Shown here: positions 241 through 16,313 of the stretch, piece after piece
How the letters are laid out: the number at the start of each line of letters is the position of its first letter
How positions within the stretch are numbered: the first letter of the stretch is position 1
Source: Sphingobacteriales bacterium
Lineage (GTDB): Bacteria > Bacteroidota > Bacteroidia > Sphingobacteriales > Sphingobacteriaceae
Direction of reading: 5' to 3'
Assembly (NCBI GenBank): GCA_015654985.1
Contig: JAATFW010000275.1
Coordinates: 1-45,761 of the forward strand
Length of the DNA stretch: 45,761 nt
Translations under genes and position numbers: made by a program
Notes under the pieces: model-generated
Database searches by the model: none
The model's input: the letters and a program-made list of their open reading frames with translations, nothing else
What the model was told of the DNA's origin: nothing

Positions 241-252
241 TGATTTCATCAG

Positions 253-617
253 TGGACCCGGAGAGATTCGAACTCTCGTCCAGATATGGAACAAATTATG
301 CTTTCTACATGCTTATCTGCCATTTAATTGTAGGGAAGGGGAAGGCTGGCAAATTGCCTGTACCGTCTTCCTTAGATGCTTTATCTCGTTCGGTTTTCGC
401 ACCCTTAACCAAACCAGTTCTGTTGATCGATGCCCCGTATGCTGATATAACAGAACAGAATACCAGCGGGACAAAAGCTGAGCTAATTCTAAATTAGGCA
501 GCTAAGGCGTAGTTATTTTCGCCAATTGTTGTTTGAGAGTTCAGATTTAAGCGCTAGTCTCACAACGCGCTGCATGCTTACATACCTGCCGCCATCCTGT
601 CAATTCCGGTCGGGCCC
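253..617 (-). ncRNA. ssrA: tmRNA (transfer-messenger RNA)
   Basis: The minus-strand transcript begins GGGCCCGACCGGAATTGACA and ends with a T-arm (GAGAGTTCGAATCTCTC) followed by CGGGTCC and a discriminator A. The two ends pair as a 7-bp acceptor stem with one G-U pair. The internal reading frame at 523-494 is GGC GAA AAT AAC TAC GCC TTA GCT GCC TAA, encoding the tag GENNYALAA, which ends in the usual ALAA proteolysis signal. The 365-nt length fits the family. No CCA is encoded. The RNA rescues stalled ribosomes together with SmpB. The gene starts 18 bp after the aminotransferase stop codon, so its promoter must lie in the 3' end of that gene or it is co-transcribed. Confidence 0.95.
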
Positions 618-6041: not shown

Positions 6042-6045
6042 TTAT

Positions 6046-6136
6046 GTTGAAAGTTAAAAGTTGAAAGTTGAAAGTTGAAAGTTGAAAGTTGTGGGTTGTG
6101 GGTTGAAAGTTGAAAGTTGAAAGTTGTGGGTTGAAA
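6046..6136. repeat. heptanucleotide tandem array (GTTGAAA/GTTGTGG)
   Basis: Thirteen consecutive 7-bp units are readable: GTTGAAA nine times, GTTAAAA once and GTTGTGG three times, with two unit types interspersed. The array starts 4 bp from the aroC start codon, within its 5' region, and decays into AT-rich sequence by about 6165. Such short heptamer repeats usually arise by slippage. Confidence 0.9.
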
Positions 6137-6195
6137 AACAAGTGTGAAGTTAAAAGTTAAAGTTTGACAAACAAAACATGTTTGCTTATTTAAGC

Positions 6196-6235
6196 TTTCA
6201 ACCCGCAACCCGCAACCCACCACCTTCAACCCGCA
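6196..6235. repeat. second heptamer array, opposite orientation
   Basis: Units TTTCAAC, CCGCAAC, CCGCAAC, CCACCAC, CTTCAAC and CCGCAAA follow one another. They are the reverse complement type of the array at 6046-6136, so the two can pair in RNA. The array runs into the 3' end of aroA and supplies its TGA stop codon at 6226-6228. Confidence 0.8.
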
Positions 6236-7491
6236 AAGAACCCTGCCTTTTGAAGATCTTCCCAGAAGGAAGGATATGATTTTCCAACTACTTCAGGTTC
6301 CTCTATTCCAAGCTGAGCAACTTTTAAAGCCAGCGGGGCAAAAGCCATAGCCATGCGGTGGTCTTCATACGTTTTAATAGTTATGCTTTTTGGAAAATGC
6401 AGACCTGAGCAGTCTAAATGGTAGAGTTCGTTCTCTTCAATGAGGTTCACCCCGATTTTAGAGAGTTCGTTCTGTAAAGCCTTAATTCTGTCGGTCTCTT
6501 TGATCTTTAATGTTTCTAAACCCGTAAAAGTTGCATTATGACCCGAAGCTGCGCAGCAAACTATTACTGTTTGTGCCAGATCAGGACAGTCTTTCAGATC
6601 AAAAAAATTACTCTTTATATCGCCAGACTCTTTGCAGATCTCAATCCCTTTTTCAGTAAAGATTGTTTCAACTCCAAAGTCTTTCATAATATTGCTGATC
6701 CTGCTATCGCCCTGAAGACTGTTTTTCTTTAGCCGGGGCAATTTGATTGCAGCTTTATCAGACAAAGCCACGATAGAATACCAGTAGGATGCAGCGCTCC
6801 AGTCGGGCTCGATCGTAATAACCGACGAACTGAATTGCTGAGGAAGGATTGAAATGGAAGGGCCCTGCCATTGATACTCTATCCCTGCCTCCTTAAGCAT
6901 GGATAAAGTCATTTCTACATAGGGTCCTGAAGTCAGATCGCCTTCAATATGAAGCTCCATTCCTTCCGGGAGAGAAGCGGCAACCAGCAGCAAAGCAGTG
7001 ATATACTGCGAACTTACATTGCCCCGGATGGTGATTTTCCTGCTTTTCTGCTGAAATCCCTTATGAAAGCGGAGAGGAGGGAAACCTTCTTTTTCTGTAT
7101 ACTCAACCTCTGCTCCTAATTCCCTTAAAGCATCAACCAGGATGCTCATAGGCCGCTGTTTCATTCTTTCAGAACCTGTGAGGATTGTCTCTGTGCCGGT
7201 AACCGCAAAATAAGCGCTGAGAAAACGCATGGCCGTTCCGGCAGGGCCAATGTTGATTACGGGAAGCCCTGATCCGTCAGATTGTTCTGCGTAGCTGCCG
7301 GCGTTTGTATGAAGGCTCTTTTGCAGTACTGCCGTATCCTCAGCAGAAGAAAGGTTCTCAACCACTACCTTTCCTTTGCTGAGAGCATTCAGTATCAGGG
7401 CACGGTTACTTTCGCTTTTAGATCCCGTAAGTTCAACCGTACAGGCAATACCGGCAGATGGCTTTGAAAGGGTTAACCTCTGGACCGTCAT
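6226..7491 (-). CDS. aroA: 3-phosphoshikimate 1-carboxyvinyltransferase (EPSP synthase)
   Basis: The 421-residue protein carries the EPSP synthase signatures: TGSKSESNRALIL at about 22-34 (shikimate-3-phosphate site), GPAGTAMRFLSAYFA, VSSQYITALLL, EPDWSAASYWY, and KETDRI with YEDHRMAMAFAPLAL near the C-terminus. It joins PEP to shikimate 3-phosphate. The ATG overlaps the end of the upstream DAHP synthase/chorismate mutase gene by 4 bp, which points to translational coupling. Its C-terminus (FFAG, stop) lies inside a heptamer array, so the last residues may have been changed by repeat expansion. Confidence 0.97.
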   Translation of the reverse strand: MTVQRLTLSKPSAGIACTVELTGSKSESNRALILNALSKGKVVVENLSSAEDTAVLQKSLHTNAGSYAEQSDGSGLPVINIGPAGTAMRFLSAYFAVTGTETILTGSERMKQRPMSILVDALRELGAEVEYTEKEGFPPLRFHKGFQQKSRKITIRGNVSSQYITALLLVAASLPEGMELHIEGDLTSGPYVEMTLSMLKEAGIEYQWQGPSISILPQQFSSSVITIEPDWSAASYWYSIVALSDKAAIKLPRLKKNSLQGDSRISNIMKDFGVETIFTEKGIEICKESGDIKSNFFDLKDCPDLAQTVIVCCAASGHNATFTGLETLKIKETDRIKALQNELSKIGVNLIEENELYHLDCSGLHFPKSITIKTYEDHRMAMAFAPLALKVAQLGIEEPEVVGKSYPSFWEDLQKAGFFAG

Positions 7492-8597
7492 TTTTCCGTT
7501 ACAGGAGTTTTAGTATTCATGATCACAGTCTGCCTGCGGATAGACTCGGCATGGATCAGTTCAAGCATCTTGGTTGTAAATTCCTCATCAAGCTTCAATG
7601 CTTTTCCAAAACTTGCACGTTTTTTGATGATCTCATCCCAGCGGTTCAACTGCAGGATAGTAATACCGTTATCCCTTTTGTACTCGCCGATTTTTTCAAC
7701 CACCGACATTCTTTCAGCAAGCTTCTGGATCACCAGATCGTCGATCTTGTCGATCTGCTTACGCAGTTCAGCAAGTTTATCAGATACAACACTGTTAACC
7801 GGCTCGGGCTGGCGCACCGTAAGAAGGTCGATAATATCTGATAATGCTGCCGGTGTTAGCTGCTGCTTTGCATCTGTCCATGCCACAGAGGGATCAATAT
7901 GCGACTCGATCATCAATCCCTGCATTTCAAGGTCAAGCGCTTTCTGAGAAATATAAGGGATCAGTTCACGGTTCCCGCAAATGTGACTGGGATCGCAGAT
8001 TACCGGTAATTCAGGACAAAGCGTTTTAAGCTGGATAGTGAGTTCCCACATAGGTTCATTTCTGAAAGCCGACTTTTCGTATGATGAAAATCCGCGGGAA
8101 ATAGCTGCCAGCTTAGTGATGCCGGCGTTATTGATCCGCTCAAGAGCGCCGATCCATAAAGAAAGGTCGGGATTAACCGGGTTTTTAACCATTACCGGTA
8201 TGTCAATTCCCTTAAGGGCATCGGCAATTTCCTGAACGGTAAAGGGATTCACCGTAGAACGTGCACCTACCCATAGGATATCTACCCCTGCAGCTAAGGC
8301 TTCTTCCACATGTTTACCTGTAGCTACTTCTACTGCTACCGGCAGGCCTGTTTCAAATTTAGCACGTCTCAGCCATTTCAACCCTACGCTTCCAATTCCT
8401 TCAAATTCGCCGGGACGGGTGCGTGGTTTCCAGATCCCTGCCCTGAGAACCGAGATTTTACCTGTTTTTGCTAAAAGATTAGCGGTTGCCAGAAGTTGTT
8501 CTTCTGTTTCGGCACTGCATGGGCCTGCAATAACAAGAGGCTGATGTGTGGGTTTCAGCCAGTTGCTTAATGGTTCTATATTAAGATTAAGTTTCAT
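7488..8597 (-). CDS. bifunctional DAHP synthase / chorismate mutase
   Basis: Read from the ATG at 8597 (MKLNLNIEPLSNW) the protein has about 369 residues; the frame is open for 17 more codons upstream, but they look non-coding. Residues about 20-265 are a type I-beta DAHP synthase (IAGPCSAE, WKPRTRPGEFEGIG, GARSTVN, CDPSHICGNRE), which condenses PEP and erythrose 4-phosphate. Residues about 275-360 are an AroQ-type chorismate mutase (LAELRKQIDKIDDLVIQKLA). This fusion is typical of Bacteroidota and lets the mutase act as a feedback-sensing domain. It lies between pheA and aroA, so the operon contains both the entry step and the branch to prephenate. Confidence 0.93.
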   Translation of the reverse strand: MKLNLNIEPLSNWLKPTHQPLVIAGPCSAETEEQLLATANLLAKTGKISVLRAGIWKPRTRPGEFEGIGSVGLKWLRRAKFETGLPVAVEVATGKHVEEALAAGVDILWVGARSTVNPFTVQEIADALKGIDIPVMVKNPVNPDLSLWIGALERINNAGITKLAAISRGFSSYEKSAFRNEPMWELTIQLKTLCPELPVICDPSHICGNRELIPYISQKALDLEMQGLMIESHIDPSVAWTDAKQQLTPAALSDIIDLLTVRQPEPVNSVVSDKLAELRKQIDKIDDLVIQKLAERMSVVEKIGEYKRDNGITILQLNRWDEIIKKRASFGKALKLDEEFTTKMLELIHAESIRRQTVIMNTKTPVTEK

Positions 8598-8668
8598 ACT
8601 ATTTGTTATGTTAAAGATAAAATGACTTGTTACATTTTTATAAAACAAAGAATTTCAGGCGATTTATT

Positions 8669-8703
8669 ACTTACAACTTACAACTTACAACTTACAACTT
8701 ATT
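8669..8703. repeat. heptanucleotide array ACTTACA x4-5
   Basis: Four perfect ACTTACA units and a fifth degenerate one (ACTTATT) fill the spacer between pheA and the DAHP synthase gene, ending 7 bp from the pheA stop codon. The unit length equals that of the arrays between aroA and aroC, although the sequence differs. Confidence 0.85.
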
Positions 8704-8709
8704 ACTTTG

Positions 8710-9540
8710 TTAAACACGGTCATTTTTAAGGTATTCGCCCATCAGGGTAAAGTTTACAGTGTGCCGTAATGCTTTATTAATGGCTTCCTGGTACTGATCA
8801 TTATTACTCCAATCTATATCCACATAAAAATTATACTCATTTCTTTTCCCTAAGACAGGCATCGATTGTATTTTGCTCAGGTTTACCTGGTGTTCAGCAA
8901 AAATATTCAGCACTTTGGCGAGCGAGCCTACTTCATCTGTTGTCTGGAAAGACAGAGATGCTTTATTGGCATTTTGAATATAGGAATCCTGGTGGTCTGT
9001 CAGTATCAGGAAGCGGGTATAGTTTTTCTTATTCGATTCTATACGGCGTTCCATAATTTCGAGGCCATATAATTTAGCTGCCAACTGGTTAGCTATGGCC
9101 ACGGTATCAGTAAGCTGCTCATCGCGGATCCTCTTGGCACAGGCTGCGGTATCGACGCTTTCCTTAATGTTTAAATGCGGGTATTCATCAAAGAAATCAA
9201 TGCACTGGCGTATAGCAATAGGATGTGACTCCACATTTTTAATCTGTTCAAATTTTACTCCTGGTAATGCAAGAAGATGCAATTGGATGCGCAGGTAAAC
9301 TTCACCAATGATAGAAAAGCGATAATCGCGCAGCAGAGTATAATTAGGCAGCAGGCTTCCGGCAATAGAGTTTTCAATGGCCATCACCACGTAGTCTGCT
9401 TTTTTGTTCTTCAAAGCTTCACAGGTTTGCTTAAAGGAGCTGCATTCTATCGTTTCTATGTTTTCACCAAAAAACTTTAATGCGGCTTCTTCATGAAAGG
9501 AGGCCCTGATTCCCTGTATTGCTACTCTTTTTTTATCCAT
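8710..9540 (-). CDS. pheA: prephenate dehydratase
   Basis: The 276-residue protein has a PDT domain (residues about 5-180: AIQGIRASFHEEAALKFF, VMAIENSIAGSL, SHPIAIRQC, NYTRFLIL) followed by an ACT regulatory domain (about 190-270) with SLAKVLNIFAEHQVNLSKIQSMP. Phenylalanine binding to the ACT domain is the usual feedback control. It converts prephenate to phenylpyruvate. It is the first structural gene of the leftward aromatic operon. Its start codon lies only 11 nt after the T-tract of a strong terminator with a Phe/Tyr leader peptide upstream, so expression is very likely controlled by attenuation. Confidence 0.96.
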   Translation of the reverse strand: MDKKRVAIQGIRASFHEEAALKFFGENIETIECSSFKQTCEALKNKKADYVVMAIENSIAGSLLPNYTLLRDYRFSIIGEVYLRIQLHLLALPGVKFEQIKNVESHPIAIRQCIDFFDEYPHLNIKESVDTAACAKRIRDEQLTDTVAIANQLAAKLYGLEIMERRIESNKKNYTRFLILTDHQDSYIQNANKASLSFQTTDEVGSLAKVLNIFAEHQVNLSKIQSMPVLGKRNEYNFYVDIDWSNNDQYQEAINKALRHTVNFTLMGEYLKNDRV

Positions 9541-9548
9541 TATGCAGT

Positions 9549-9583
9549 AAAAAAAAAAGTCCCGGCTGTTAGGCCGGGACTTT
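9549..9583 (-). terminator. pheA attenuator terminator hairpin
   Basis: On the minus strand AAAGTCCCGGC (9583-9573) pairs perfectly over 11 bp with GCCGGGACTTT (9566-9556) across a 6-nt loop, followed by a run of ten Ts. It stands between the leader peptide and the pheA ATG and would stop transcription before the operon when formed. Confidence 0.93.
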
Positions 9584-9612
9584 ATATATAGTTCTTTTGG
9601 TCAAAACATATC

Positions 9613-9624
9613 AGTCCCGGCTTT
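9613..9624 (-). promoter_or_regulatory. antiterminator arm of the pheA leader
   Basis: The minus strand reads AAGCCGGGACT directly after the leader stop codon. AGCCGGGACT repeats the 3' arm of the terminator, so it can instead pair with the 5' arm (9583-9573) and prevent the terminator from forming. A ribosome at the leader stop codon would mask this arm; a ribosome stalled on the Phe/Tyr codons would leave it free. Confidence 0.8.
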
Positions 9625-9674
9625 TACCTAAAGTAGTAAAAGTAACCAAACCGATATATTGTGTTATTGCTCAT
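9624..9674 (-). CDS. Phe/Tyr-rich leader peptide of the pheA operon
   Basis: An ATG at 9674 opens a 16-codon frame encoding MSNNTIYRFGYFYYFR and ending TAA. Seven of the last ten residues are Phe or Tyr (F9, Y11, F12, Y13, Y14, F15, plus Y7), far above chance. It starts about 10-18 nt after a well-matched promoter and ends exactly where the antiterminator arm begins. This is the design of classical pheL/trpL control: scarce Phe- or Tyr-tRNA stalls the ribosome and allows readthrough into pheA. It is too short for ordinary gene finders. No strong ribosome binding site is visible, which is usual in this phylum. Confidence 0.85.
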   Translation of the reverse strand: MSNNTIYRFGYFYYFR

Positions 9675-9691
9675 TGCTTATTTATTGAGGT

Positions 9692-9721
9692 CAAATATAC
9701 GTCTATATTTTTATGTGTCAA
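9692..9721 (-). promoter_or_regulatory. promoter of the aromatic operon
   Basis: On the minus strand TTG (9721-9719) and TATATTTG (9699-9692) are separated by 19 nt, a full match to the Bacteroidota sigma factor consensus. Transcription would start about 10 nt before the leader peptide ATG. Confidence 0.75.
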
Positions 9722-9991: not shown

Positions 9992-11491
9992 ATGGAAAAT
10001 TATATTTTGGCTCTTGATCAGGGCACTACAAGCTCCCGGGCTATTATTTTTGATCACAACGGAGAGATTAAATCAATTGCACAAAAAGAATTTACACAGA
10101 TCTTCCCTCAACCGGGGTGGGTTGAGCACGATCCGGATGAAATATGGTCAACACAGGCCGGTGTAGCGGCTGAAGCAACGGTTAAACTGGGGCTCAACGG
10201 AACAAATATTAAAGCCATCGGCATTACAAATCAGCGGGAAACGACGATCGTGTGGAACCGGAAGACCGGGGAACCCGTATATAATGCAATTGTATGGCAA
10301 GACCGCCGGACTGCAGTTTTTTGCGAACAATTAAAAAGTGAAGGTTTTACAGACACAATACGTTCTAAGACCGGGCTGGTTATAGATTCCTATTTTTCTG
10401 CCACCAAAATCAGATGGATCCTCGATAATGTAGAAGGGGCAAGGGAAAAAGCCAATGCAGGCGAGCTGGCTTTTGGAACTGTCGATAGTTGGCTTATCTG
10501 GAAACTTACCCGTGGACGCGTTCATGTTACAGATGTTACGAATGCCAGCCGCACTATGCTTTTTAACATCCGGACACAGCAATGGGACTCTCAATTACTT
10601 GAAATTTTTGATATTCCTCAAAGTATGCTCCCTGAAGTTAAACAATCCAGTGAGATCTACGGGGAAACAGCCACAACCATCTTTGCCTCTAAAATTCCGA
10701 TTGCCGGAATAGCAGGAGACCAGCAGGCCGCACTTTTTGGCCAGATGTGTATTGATAAGGCCATGGTTAAAAACACCTATGGAACCGGTTGCTTTATGTT
10801 AATGAATATAGGAGATGAATTTATTGAATCTAAAAATAATCTCTTGACTACTATTGCCTGGAAGGTGAACGGAAAGATCCAGTATGCATTTGAGGGAAGT
10901 ATTTTTATCGGAGGGGCAGTGGTTCAATGGCTTCGTGATGGTTTGGGAATTATTAAAAACTCTGCCGAAATCGAGGATCTGGCACTAAGTGTAGCAGATA
11001 CAGGCGGTTTGTTTTTTGTTCCTGCATTTGCCGGGCTGGGGGCTCCTTACTGGAACCCGGAGGTTCGCGGAACGATTGTGGGAATTACCAGGGGAACCAC
11101 CTCAGGGCATTTGGCCCGTGCAGCCATAGAATCTATCGCCCTGCAAACCATGGATGTATTAAAGGCGATGGAAGCGGATGCCGGTATGAGAATTCTGGAG
11201 CTGAGAGTGGATGGGGGAGCTGTTGTTAATGACCTCCTGATGCAATTCCAGGCGGATCTTTTAAACTGTAAGGTAATAAGACCTGAAATTGTTGAAACAA
11301 CGGCTCTTGGTGCCGCTTACCTGGCTGGTTTGGCTGTGGGTTACTGGAAGAATATAGAAGAAATACAACAATTATGGCAGGCCGAAAGAGCGTTTATCCC
11401 GGCTCCTGATACTCAGGAGATGCAGAAAACTATCAAAGGATGGAAAAAAGCAATTCATGTTGCACGGTGCTGGTGTGATGATCAGGACTGA
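9992..11491 (+). CDS. glpK: glycerol kinase
   Basis: The 499-residue length and motifs are those of FGGY-family glycerol kinase: [16 protein letters not shown] at the N-terminus, [69 protein letters not shown] and the C-terminal [20 protein letters not shown]. It phosphorylates glycerol to glycerol 3-phosphate with ATP in the cytosol. The glycerol facilitator follows 35 bp downstream in the same direction. No repressor gene is adjacent. The 270 bp upstream, shared with the aromatic operon, is AT-rich; no promoter there is convincing by eye. Confidence 0.97.
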
Positions 11492-16239: not shown

Positions 16240-16313
16240 GCGCCTATAGCTCAGTTGGTTAGAGTAGAAGAGTCATAATCTTTTGGTCCCTGGTTCGAGC
16301 CCAGGTGGGCGCA
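16240..16313 (+). tRNA. tRNA with CAT anticodon (Met, elongator-like)
   Basis: GCGCCTA pairs with TGGGCGC as a 7-bp acceptor stem (one G-U pair). The D-arm is GCTC...GAGT, the anticodon stem GAAGA/TCTTT encloses GTCATAA, and the T-arm is CCTGG-TTCGAGC-CCAGG. The anticodon is CAT at loop positions 34-36. No CCA is encoded. It lacks the C1-A72 mismatch of an initiator, so it is elongator Met or, if its C34 is modified to lysidine, Ile2. The sequence alone does not settle this. Confidence 0.93.

Follow-up and report, generated by a model that had tools for sequence, protein, structure and literature searches.

A probable four-segment Phe/Tyr leader-peptide attenuator in front of the pheA-aroG/CM-aroA-aroC operon of Sphingobacteriaceae

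How might a member of the Sphingobacteriaceae match an operon that unites genes of the Phe branch with genes of the shared aromatic trunk to its supply of aromatic amino acids? This question is raised by the region upstream of pheA in the window, i.e. the whole stretch of 45,761 nucleotides analysed here. The operon comprises four genes:

8710..9540, minus strand: pheA, prephenate dehydratase with ACT domain (PF00800 and PF01842 above cut-off)
7488..8648, minus strand: aroG/CM, DAHP synthase fused to chorismate mutase (PF00793 and PF01817 above cut-off), an open reading frame with uncertain start codon
6226..7491, minus strand: aroA, EPSP synthase (PF00275; TIGR01356 over cut-off), with an ATG that overlaps the aroG stop codon
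4950..6041, minus strand: aroC, chorismate synthase (PF01264; TIGR00033 over cut-off)

Short tandem repeats (ACAACTT-like and CAACTTT-like) occupy the gaps between pheA and aroG (about 8650-8710) and between aroA and aroC (6042-6225). Elsewhere, the window carries a tmRNA (250-617, minus strand) and a tRNA gene (16240-16313, plus strand).

An earlier note on this DNA had placed a Phe/Tyr leader-peptide attenuator in front of these genes. The region concerned, 9721-9549, lies between pheA and a divergent gene (9992-11491), which we take to be glycerol-kinase-like, and very probably constitutes a classic four-segment, ribosome-mediated transcription attenuator of the operon. It combines a short Phe/Tyr-rich frame with three competing RNA helices:

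9719..9721, minus strand: TTG, -33 element of the candidate promoter (from sequence and conservation)
9692..9699, minus strand: TATATTTG, -7 element (from sequence and conservation), separated from the TTG by a 19-nt spacer
9624..9674, minus strand: leader frame MSNNTIYRFGYFYYFR plus TAA (from sequence and the codon table of 62 aligned loci)
9648..9660, minus strand: segment 1, inside leader codons 5-9; its partner is 9617-9605 (protector helix 1:2)
9605..9621, minus strand: segment 2, of which 9621-9613 pairs with segment 3 (antiterminator 2:3) and 9617-9605 with segment 1
9573..9581, minus strand: segment 3, the partner of either segment 2 or segment 4
9556..9583, minus strand: terminator stem-loop 3:4 with 11 perfect pairs, seven of them G-C; segment 4 is 9566-9556
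9549..9558, minus strand: run of ten Ts (from sequence), the first three within the terminator stem

The TTG is presumably part of the promoter type familiar from Bacteroidota. All four parts described in the earlier note, namely promoter, 16-codon frame with seven Phe/Tyr residues, arm, and 11-pair terminator with ten Ts, were recovered on the minus strand. The frame extends from the ATG at 9674 to the TAA at 9624 and holds its aromatic residues as Y7, F9, Y11, F12, Y13, Y14 and F15. The arm AGCCGGGACT (9622-9613) begins one base 3' of the leader stop codon and is an exact 10-nt match to the terminator's 3' arm (9567-9558), as had been asserted. Eight bases separate the last T of the terminator from the pheA ATG at 9540.

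Two sets of relatives were compared with the window. The first stems from a pheA protein search of 60 related genomes, which gave matches in 40 (33 within the window's family); 30 of the family loci were kept and the three further family matches were examined separately. No pheA match was obtained by this protein search in four of 37 family genomes. The second set was limited to the best 80 of 290 records; most carry the names Pedobacter, Mucilaginibacter, Daejeonella, Arcticibacter or those of relatives, and some are metagenome bins whose titles are doubtful. Identical loci link the genus of the window to Pararcticibacter and Arcticibacter, and hence to the Sphingobacteriaceae. A Phe/Tyr-rich leader precedes pheA in all 30 loci of the first set and in 78 of the 80 loci of the second, the two misses (L082 and L089) being contig ends with only 144 nt upstream. 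Two of the three further family genomes carry the leader as well (MTLISNNRFYFYFFNKPHRDLL and MRTISNNWFYFYFFNKPHRDLL), and the third has the frame MNSINSYWYACWFFFRTRGIVMLMN with five Phe/Tyr and, by eye, two Trp residues. Terminators were detected by script in 102 of 108 leaders and by eye in the remaining six. Behind pheA, aroG/CM follows in 110 of 110 loci (including the best 80 of 290). The full order pheA-aroG/CM-aroA-aroC is present in 73 of the 80 loci with long flanks (best 80 of 290), the other 30 loci extending just 1.5 kb beyond pheA. Five of the seven loci without the full order end at a contig edge; in the other two, which no contig end cuts, aroC was not detected within 4.8 kb (L036), nor were aroA and aroC (L102). 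Hence, the proposed attenuator is backed by a frame, aromatic codons, alternative pairings and an operon order that recur in relatives.

For codon-level comparison, the 110 loci were reduced by L082 and L089, which are too short, and by seven identical copies to 101, and then thinned to 62 leaders below 88% identity (alignment A1). The search for conserved aromatic codons upstream of pheA, suggested in the earlier note, had a clear outcome: one column is Phe in 62 of 62 leaders (TTT 61, TTC 1), and the next position is Tyr in all 62 (TAC 55, TAT 7). At other positions, Phe and Tyr interchange and both third bases are used; for instance, columns 110-112 encode 38 Phe and 22 Tyr. One further position is Trp, Tyr or Phe in 54 of 62. 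Every aligned leader contains both Phe and Tyr, with 6 to 10 in total, and 20 of the 62 contain Trp in addition. Judged by its synonymous changes and Phe/Tyr swaps, the frame is constrained at the amino acid level.

Phe and Tyr codons together do not necessarily mean that both amino acids are read. Conceivably, the leader answers chiefly to one of them, such as Tyr, which is the more frequent in the window's leader, and the other codons are retained only for pairing or as neighbours. The Tyr codon at columns 83-85 (Tyr in 58 of 62) indeed belongs to helix 1:2, and Tyr is invariant elsewhere in the frame. However, Phe and Tyr replace each other at several positions, including columns 110-112 outside helix 1:2, which suggests that either serves, and another position is Phe without exception. 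A response to a single amino acid is thus unlikely, albeit the best placed of the alternatives to joint sensing of Phe and Tyr.

The genome comparison is less clear on the use of sensing Tyr. Of 61 family genomes, 20 have a prephenate dehydrogenase match above 100 bits, but not one of the four genomes of the window's genus (G000, G001, G003 and G005) does. There, the only matches score 24-27 bits, the frames being 430-452 codons long; the 26.5 cut-off is barely passed in three of the four. Likewise, a biopterin-dependent hydroxylase was detected in 28 of 61 family genomes and in none of these four. The idea that Tyr is sensed since the operon feeds a Tyr route in the same genus is therefore unsupported, as neither kind of match revealed a clear Tyr-making enzyme in the four genomes, and the use of Tyr sensing in this genus is unclear for that reason.

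Alignment A1 also bears on the RNA helices, for which the earlier note had recommended a search for covarying arms. Terminator 3:4 has 97.2% of cells paired; double-sided changes occur in 25 cells versus 3.7 in shuffles, and no shuffle reaches 25. Antiterminator 2:3 is paired in 93.9% of cells versus 18-55% when slid, but covaries weakly, with four double-sided cells versus 1.5 in shuffles (25 of 500 shuffles reach four) and two covarying pairs (matched by 197 of 500 shuffles); at each of four outer pairs, five to eight rows are unpaired. Helix 2:3 is thus supported by conservation more than by covariation, perhaps because segment 3 is also bound to segment 4. Protector 1:2 gives a mixed picture. 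It is paired in 84.0% of cells versus 31-49% when slid, and its 28 double-sided cells compare with 17.7 in shuffles (6 of 500 as high). Twenty of these 28 cells fall on one pair, at which a leader codon ACA or GCA is mirrored by the opposite base (G-C 21, A-U 20, G-U 8 and unpaired 13 over 62 rows). In 1:2, shuffles do as well in the number of covarying pairs and of pair types (354 and 433 of 500, respectively), and the inner pairs 87-134 and 88-133 are often broken (23 and 37 rows). In one row, L065, A1 is off by one base at segment 2, where by eye the arm CTGGG still pairs with CCCAG.

These data revise one aspect of the earlier note, which had described a minimal three-segment device and overlooked the helix of 9660-9648 with 9617-9605, located partly inside the leader frame. 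Because helix 1:2 is conserved, the window and its relatives carry the classic set of 1:2, 2:3 and 3:4, i.e. four segments rather than three. The position of the arm needs a similar adjustment. A location right after the stop codon is correct for the window but not as the general form: the stop codon stands two bases before segment 2 in 12 of 62 leaders, the window included, and at or past the end of segment 2 in 50 of 62, in which the arm begins within the frame and encodes its last residues, e.g. KSRD.

A conserved alternative structure would also be expected if a protein or a small molecule switched the terminator and arms, the frame being incidental. Yet, the frame keeps its amino acids through synonymous change, the amino acid tracks the operon (see the class-wide comparison below), and no T-box or riboswitch family matches, which renders another sensor very improbable. 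In particular, a T-box or amino acid riboswitch was rejected, as no such family exceeded its gathering score or occurred among 16 weak matches. More generally, no family of Rfam 15 reaches threshold at the pheA site or in 12 related loci, and the only over-threshold matches in the window are the tmRNA and the tRNA. At the site, Phe_leader (RF01859) scores 22.6 bits against a gathering score of 55, and Bacteroid-trp (RF01692) reaches its gathering score neither in the window nor in the 12 related loci.

A ribosome-mediated attenuator, the favoured explanation, requires a leader rich in codons for the operon's product, which applies here to Phe, Tyr being a product of the wider pathway. Its terminator should stand between frame and first gene, its antiterminator should exclude the terminator, and its protector should involve leader codons; this is the arrangement of 3:4, 2:3 and 1:2 before pheA. 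With charged tRNA-Phe and tRNA-Tyr, a ribosome translating the frame would get to the stop codon and mask segment 2, 3:4 would form and the operon would be off. If tRNA-Phe or tRNA-Tyr were scarce, the ribosome would halt on the Phe/Tyr run and keep helix 1:2 open. The free segment 2 could then grab segment 3 before segment 4 exists, and RNA polymerase would read into the operon. In an untranslated leader, 1:2 would sequester segment 2 and the terminator would form. With the Phe branch, the operon unites the first trunk gene (DAHP synthase) and the two final ones (aroA and aroC), so that the supply of Phe and Tyr would set the flow into the whole aromatic pathway.

The remaining hallmark, a ribosome that masks segment 2 at the stop codon and spares it at the control codons, is a matter of geometry. 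A footprint from 17 nt before the A-site codon to 12 nt after it was assumed; a ribosome reach of 12 nt past the stop codon is mentioned in a passage of PMC4833913. With this assumed footprint, 7 or more bases of segment 2 would be masked once the ribosome has reached the stop codon; this holds for 61 of 62 leaders, the exception being L065 with a stop codon well beyond segment 2. At least five Phe/Tyr codons per leader (range 5-10) leave at least 7 bases of segment 2 free when the ribosome stalls on them, in 62 of 62. The geometry is hence consistent with the earlier suggestion that a finishing ribosome would cover the arm and a stalled one would free it. It also speaks against a plain terminator that yields a trans-acting short RNA, with frame and arm copy playing no part in the control of pheA. 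A short terminated RNA would arise in that case, too, but 108 of 110 loci (including the best 80 of 290) carry the set upstream of pheA, and the location of segment 2 would bring it under a terminating ribosome in 61 of 62 leaders, a placement that a trans-acting RNA does not need. Such a role is more doubtful still than switching by another sensor.

Over 62 leaders, the median folding energies of 1:2, 2:3 and 3:4 are -16.6, -18.5 and -18.9 kcal/mol. Helix 2:3 is the weaker of 2:3 and 3:4 in 32 of the 62, and the window has -21.4, -21.1 and -19.8 kcal/mol, respectively. The computation of competing folds that the earlier note had called for gave a divided answer. In the window, with segment 3 just made, 2:3 prevails with the ribosome's A site on codons 7-14 (P(2:3)=1.00), and its probability drops to 0.57 at codon 15, 0.01 at codon 16 and 0.00 at the stop codon. 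For the whole leader at equilibrium, however, the terminator is favoured at every ribosome position (P(3:4) at least 0.97). Antitermination would therefore have to be kinetic, with 2:3 forming first and lasting long enough. The trpL switch is likewise held to be kinetic. The model also yields P(2:3)=1.00 without a ribosome or with a ribosome on codons 1-6 when segment 3 has just been made, and so the off state of an untranslated leader depends on earlier formation of 1:2.

To estimate how readily such an arrangement arises by accident, the 410-nt intergenic stretch was shuffled 3000 times with its dinucleotides preserved. A Phe/Tyr-rich frame turned up in 20 shuffles, a terminator in 8 and the arm copy in none; the ordered set of frame, arm copy and terminator occurred in 0 of 3000. 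Among 444 overlapping tiles covering both strands of the window, the ordered set passes only in the two that hold the pheA leader site. In addition, the 191-nt leader RNA folds with -50.2 kcal/mol versus -29.7 +/- 3.6 in shuffles, i.e. 5.7 s.d. lower. A chance or low-complexity product of AT-rich DNA, to which the T-rich Phe and Tyr codons of this AT-rich region might hint, is practically negligible in view of the 0 of 3000 shuffles and the conservation in relatives. A simple promoter scan by itself was not above chance (five found versus 5.9 expected); the promoter call rests on conservation. A TAnnTTTG/A -7 box is present in 97 of 97 correctly placed distinct leaders (98 minus L039, which is wrongly placed and a copy of L013), and a TTG stands 18-22 bases upstream of it in 94 of the 97, at 19 bases in 84 of those.

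A covariance model built from A1 was run on 198 genomes of the class and matched 78 at E 0.01 or better. Several of the examples turned out to be bare terminators on reading, and many of the 78 may be of this kind; none were counted as relatives. The better matches comprise Trp leaders (WWW) before trpE, His leaders (HHHH) before hisG, a Phe/Tyr leader before a DAHP synthase-like gene, and an Ile/Thr leader, MIFNTSIITTIIITTGINQRG, before an aspartokinase-like gene; except for trpE and hisG, genes in the class were named from protein starts. Ile/Val-rich leaders precede a branched-chain aminotransferase-like gene (L120 in G123) and an ilvD-like gene (L124 in G185). Upstream of an aspartokinase-like gene in G018 and G207 (L161 and L162), the leader begins with MIFNTSIITTIIITTG, which resembles the make-up of the enterobacterial thr leader. 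In G129 (L127) and G160 (L134) of class family f15, a leader beginning with MLITAAIYFTFFYFYFRSQ precedes a DAHP synthase-like gene; pheA lies about 3.5 kb downstream of this Phe/Tyr leader on the same strand and has no leader of its own.

As a control for specificity, frames dense in F/Y, His or Trp were sought within 420 nt upstream of pheA (52 loci, from 52 of 52 genomes with a match), hisG (30 loci from 47 genomes) and trpE (30 of 33 strong places, with three loci of less than 200 nt upstream kept in the denominator). F/Y-dense frames precede 32 of 52 pheA, 1 of 30 hisG and 0 of 30 trpE genes. The corresponding numbers for His-dense frames are 1 of 52, 21 of 30 and 0 of 30, and those for Trp-dense frames 6 of 52, 7 of 30 and 24 of 30, the shuffle background amounting to 0-1.3% for F/Y and His frames and 12-15% for Trp. 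Leader codons follow the operon's product across the class; no frame over threshold was found upstream of 20 of the 52 pheA genes. An intrinsic terminator precedes the gene in 26 of 32 pheA, 14 of 21 hisG and 18 of 24 trpE leaders. At p 0.05 or better, automatic testing assigned a segment-2 pairing to 16 of 26 pheA, 6 of 14 hisG and 4 of 18 trpE leaders among these terminator-bearing ones, and to 11 of 20 such pheA leaders outside the family. This test uses a fixed window around the stop codon, which arms deep inside the frame escape. As segment-2 pairing was found in part of the leaders, the arm is not demonstrated everywhere in the class.

Further leaders are encoded in the genome of the window itself. 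Before trpE (L149, about 713-860), the leader MLNAGHTQNWWWHANRSAGNRYVYTA is present, and GCGCCGGG is, by eye, repeated in the terminator that follows. This leader appears to be a Trp attenuator of the same layout as the pheA leader, with its arm so deep in the frame that the fixed-window test misses it. Upstream of hisG (L148), the leader MTVLHVYHHHLHHRFAAI contains six His codons. No intrinsic terminator was detected between L148 and hisG, and the same test likewise found none in 7 of 21 His leaders of the class; His leaders of this kind may work without 3:4. A second copy of the pheA type in the same genome was considered and rejected: the next match has 37.9 bits (E 0.011), lies near a contig end and is by eye a bare terminator.

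Taken together, the leaders for His, Trp, Thr/Ile and Ile/Val found in relatives suggest that the class possesses a whole set of attenuators; the examples examined reach the threshold of no Rfam family. A broader proposition, to which we give an even chance, has two halves. First, one leader peptide would respond jointly to a shortage of Phe and Tyr, as well as of Trp in a third of the aligned leaders, and thereby set both the entry and the exit of the shikimate trunk throughout the family. Second, this leader would represent one version of a cassette made up of a TTG-N19-TAnnTTTG promoter, a mini-frame that is almost leaderless, an arm beneath the stop codon and a terminator, which is reused in Bacteroidia with swapped codons for Phe/Tyr, Trp, His, Thr/Ile or Ile/Val, so that attenuation would be a main route of amino acid control in the class. 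A leader that reads two amino acids of the pathway and precedes DAHP synthase, aroA and aroC in addition to pheA would put the shared trunk under product hunger via RNA alone. The alignment of relatives allows precise and cheap tests, for example, by codon swaps and arm swaps.

Among known systems, pheL-pheA of Escherichia coli combines a short Phe-rich leader, alternative hairpins and an intrinsic terminator before a prephenate dehydratase gene. The window shares its short leader, alternative hairpins, intrinsic terminator and prephenate dehydratase gene, but its leader mixes Phe with Tyr codons, and its operon spans four genes, among them DAHP synthase, aroA and aroC. The amino acid leaders of enterobacteria further include thrL, hisL and trpL, and the Thr/Ile, His and Trp leaders of related genomes would follow the same principle, common descent not being claimed.

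Within the phylum, the Bacteroid-trp RNA (RF01692) is described in a part of PMC2864571 as a predicted cis-regulatory element of Bacteroidetes, and a passage of PMC6414381 compares it to the E. coli trp leader. In contrast to the predicted pheA attenuator, Bacteroid-trp belongs to the trp operon. The closest precedent is found in sections of PMC9723704 on Flavobacterium psychrophilum, which describe strong hints of attenuation by leader peptides in front of amino acid operons, as well as conserved structured pheA and hisG elements in Flavobacteriaceae that have no Rfam hits. Phylum and gene are shared with this pheA 5' element, but the family differs, and the passages concerned mention neither a leader peptide sequence nor a Phe/Tyr reading, helices or a trunk operon. 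Short frames within long 5' UTRs of Bacteroides thetaiotaomicron are covered in a passage of PMC7366714, and attenuators of Actinobacteria in one of PMC1262725. PMC4833913 cites a 2010 attenuation survey by Lopatovskaya and others, which may already include examples from this phylum. Besides these papers, no description of a Sphingobacteriaceae pheA leader was found among open-access titles and abstract openings, and no measured Phe/Tyr response of the pheA leader in the open literature searched. It is well supported that the pheA leader represents a further instance of a known attenuator type, related elements of which have previously been noted in the phylum.
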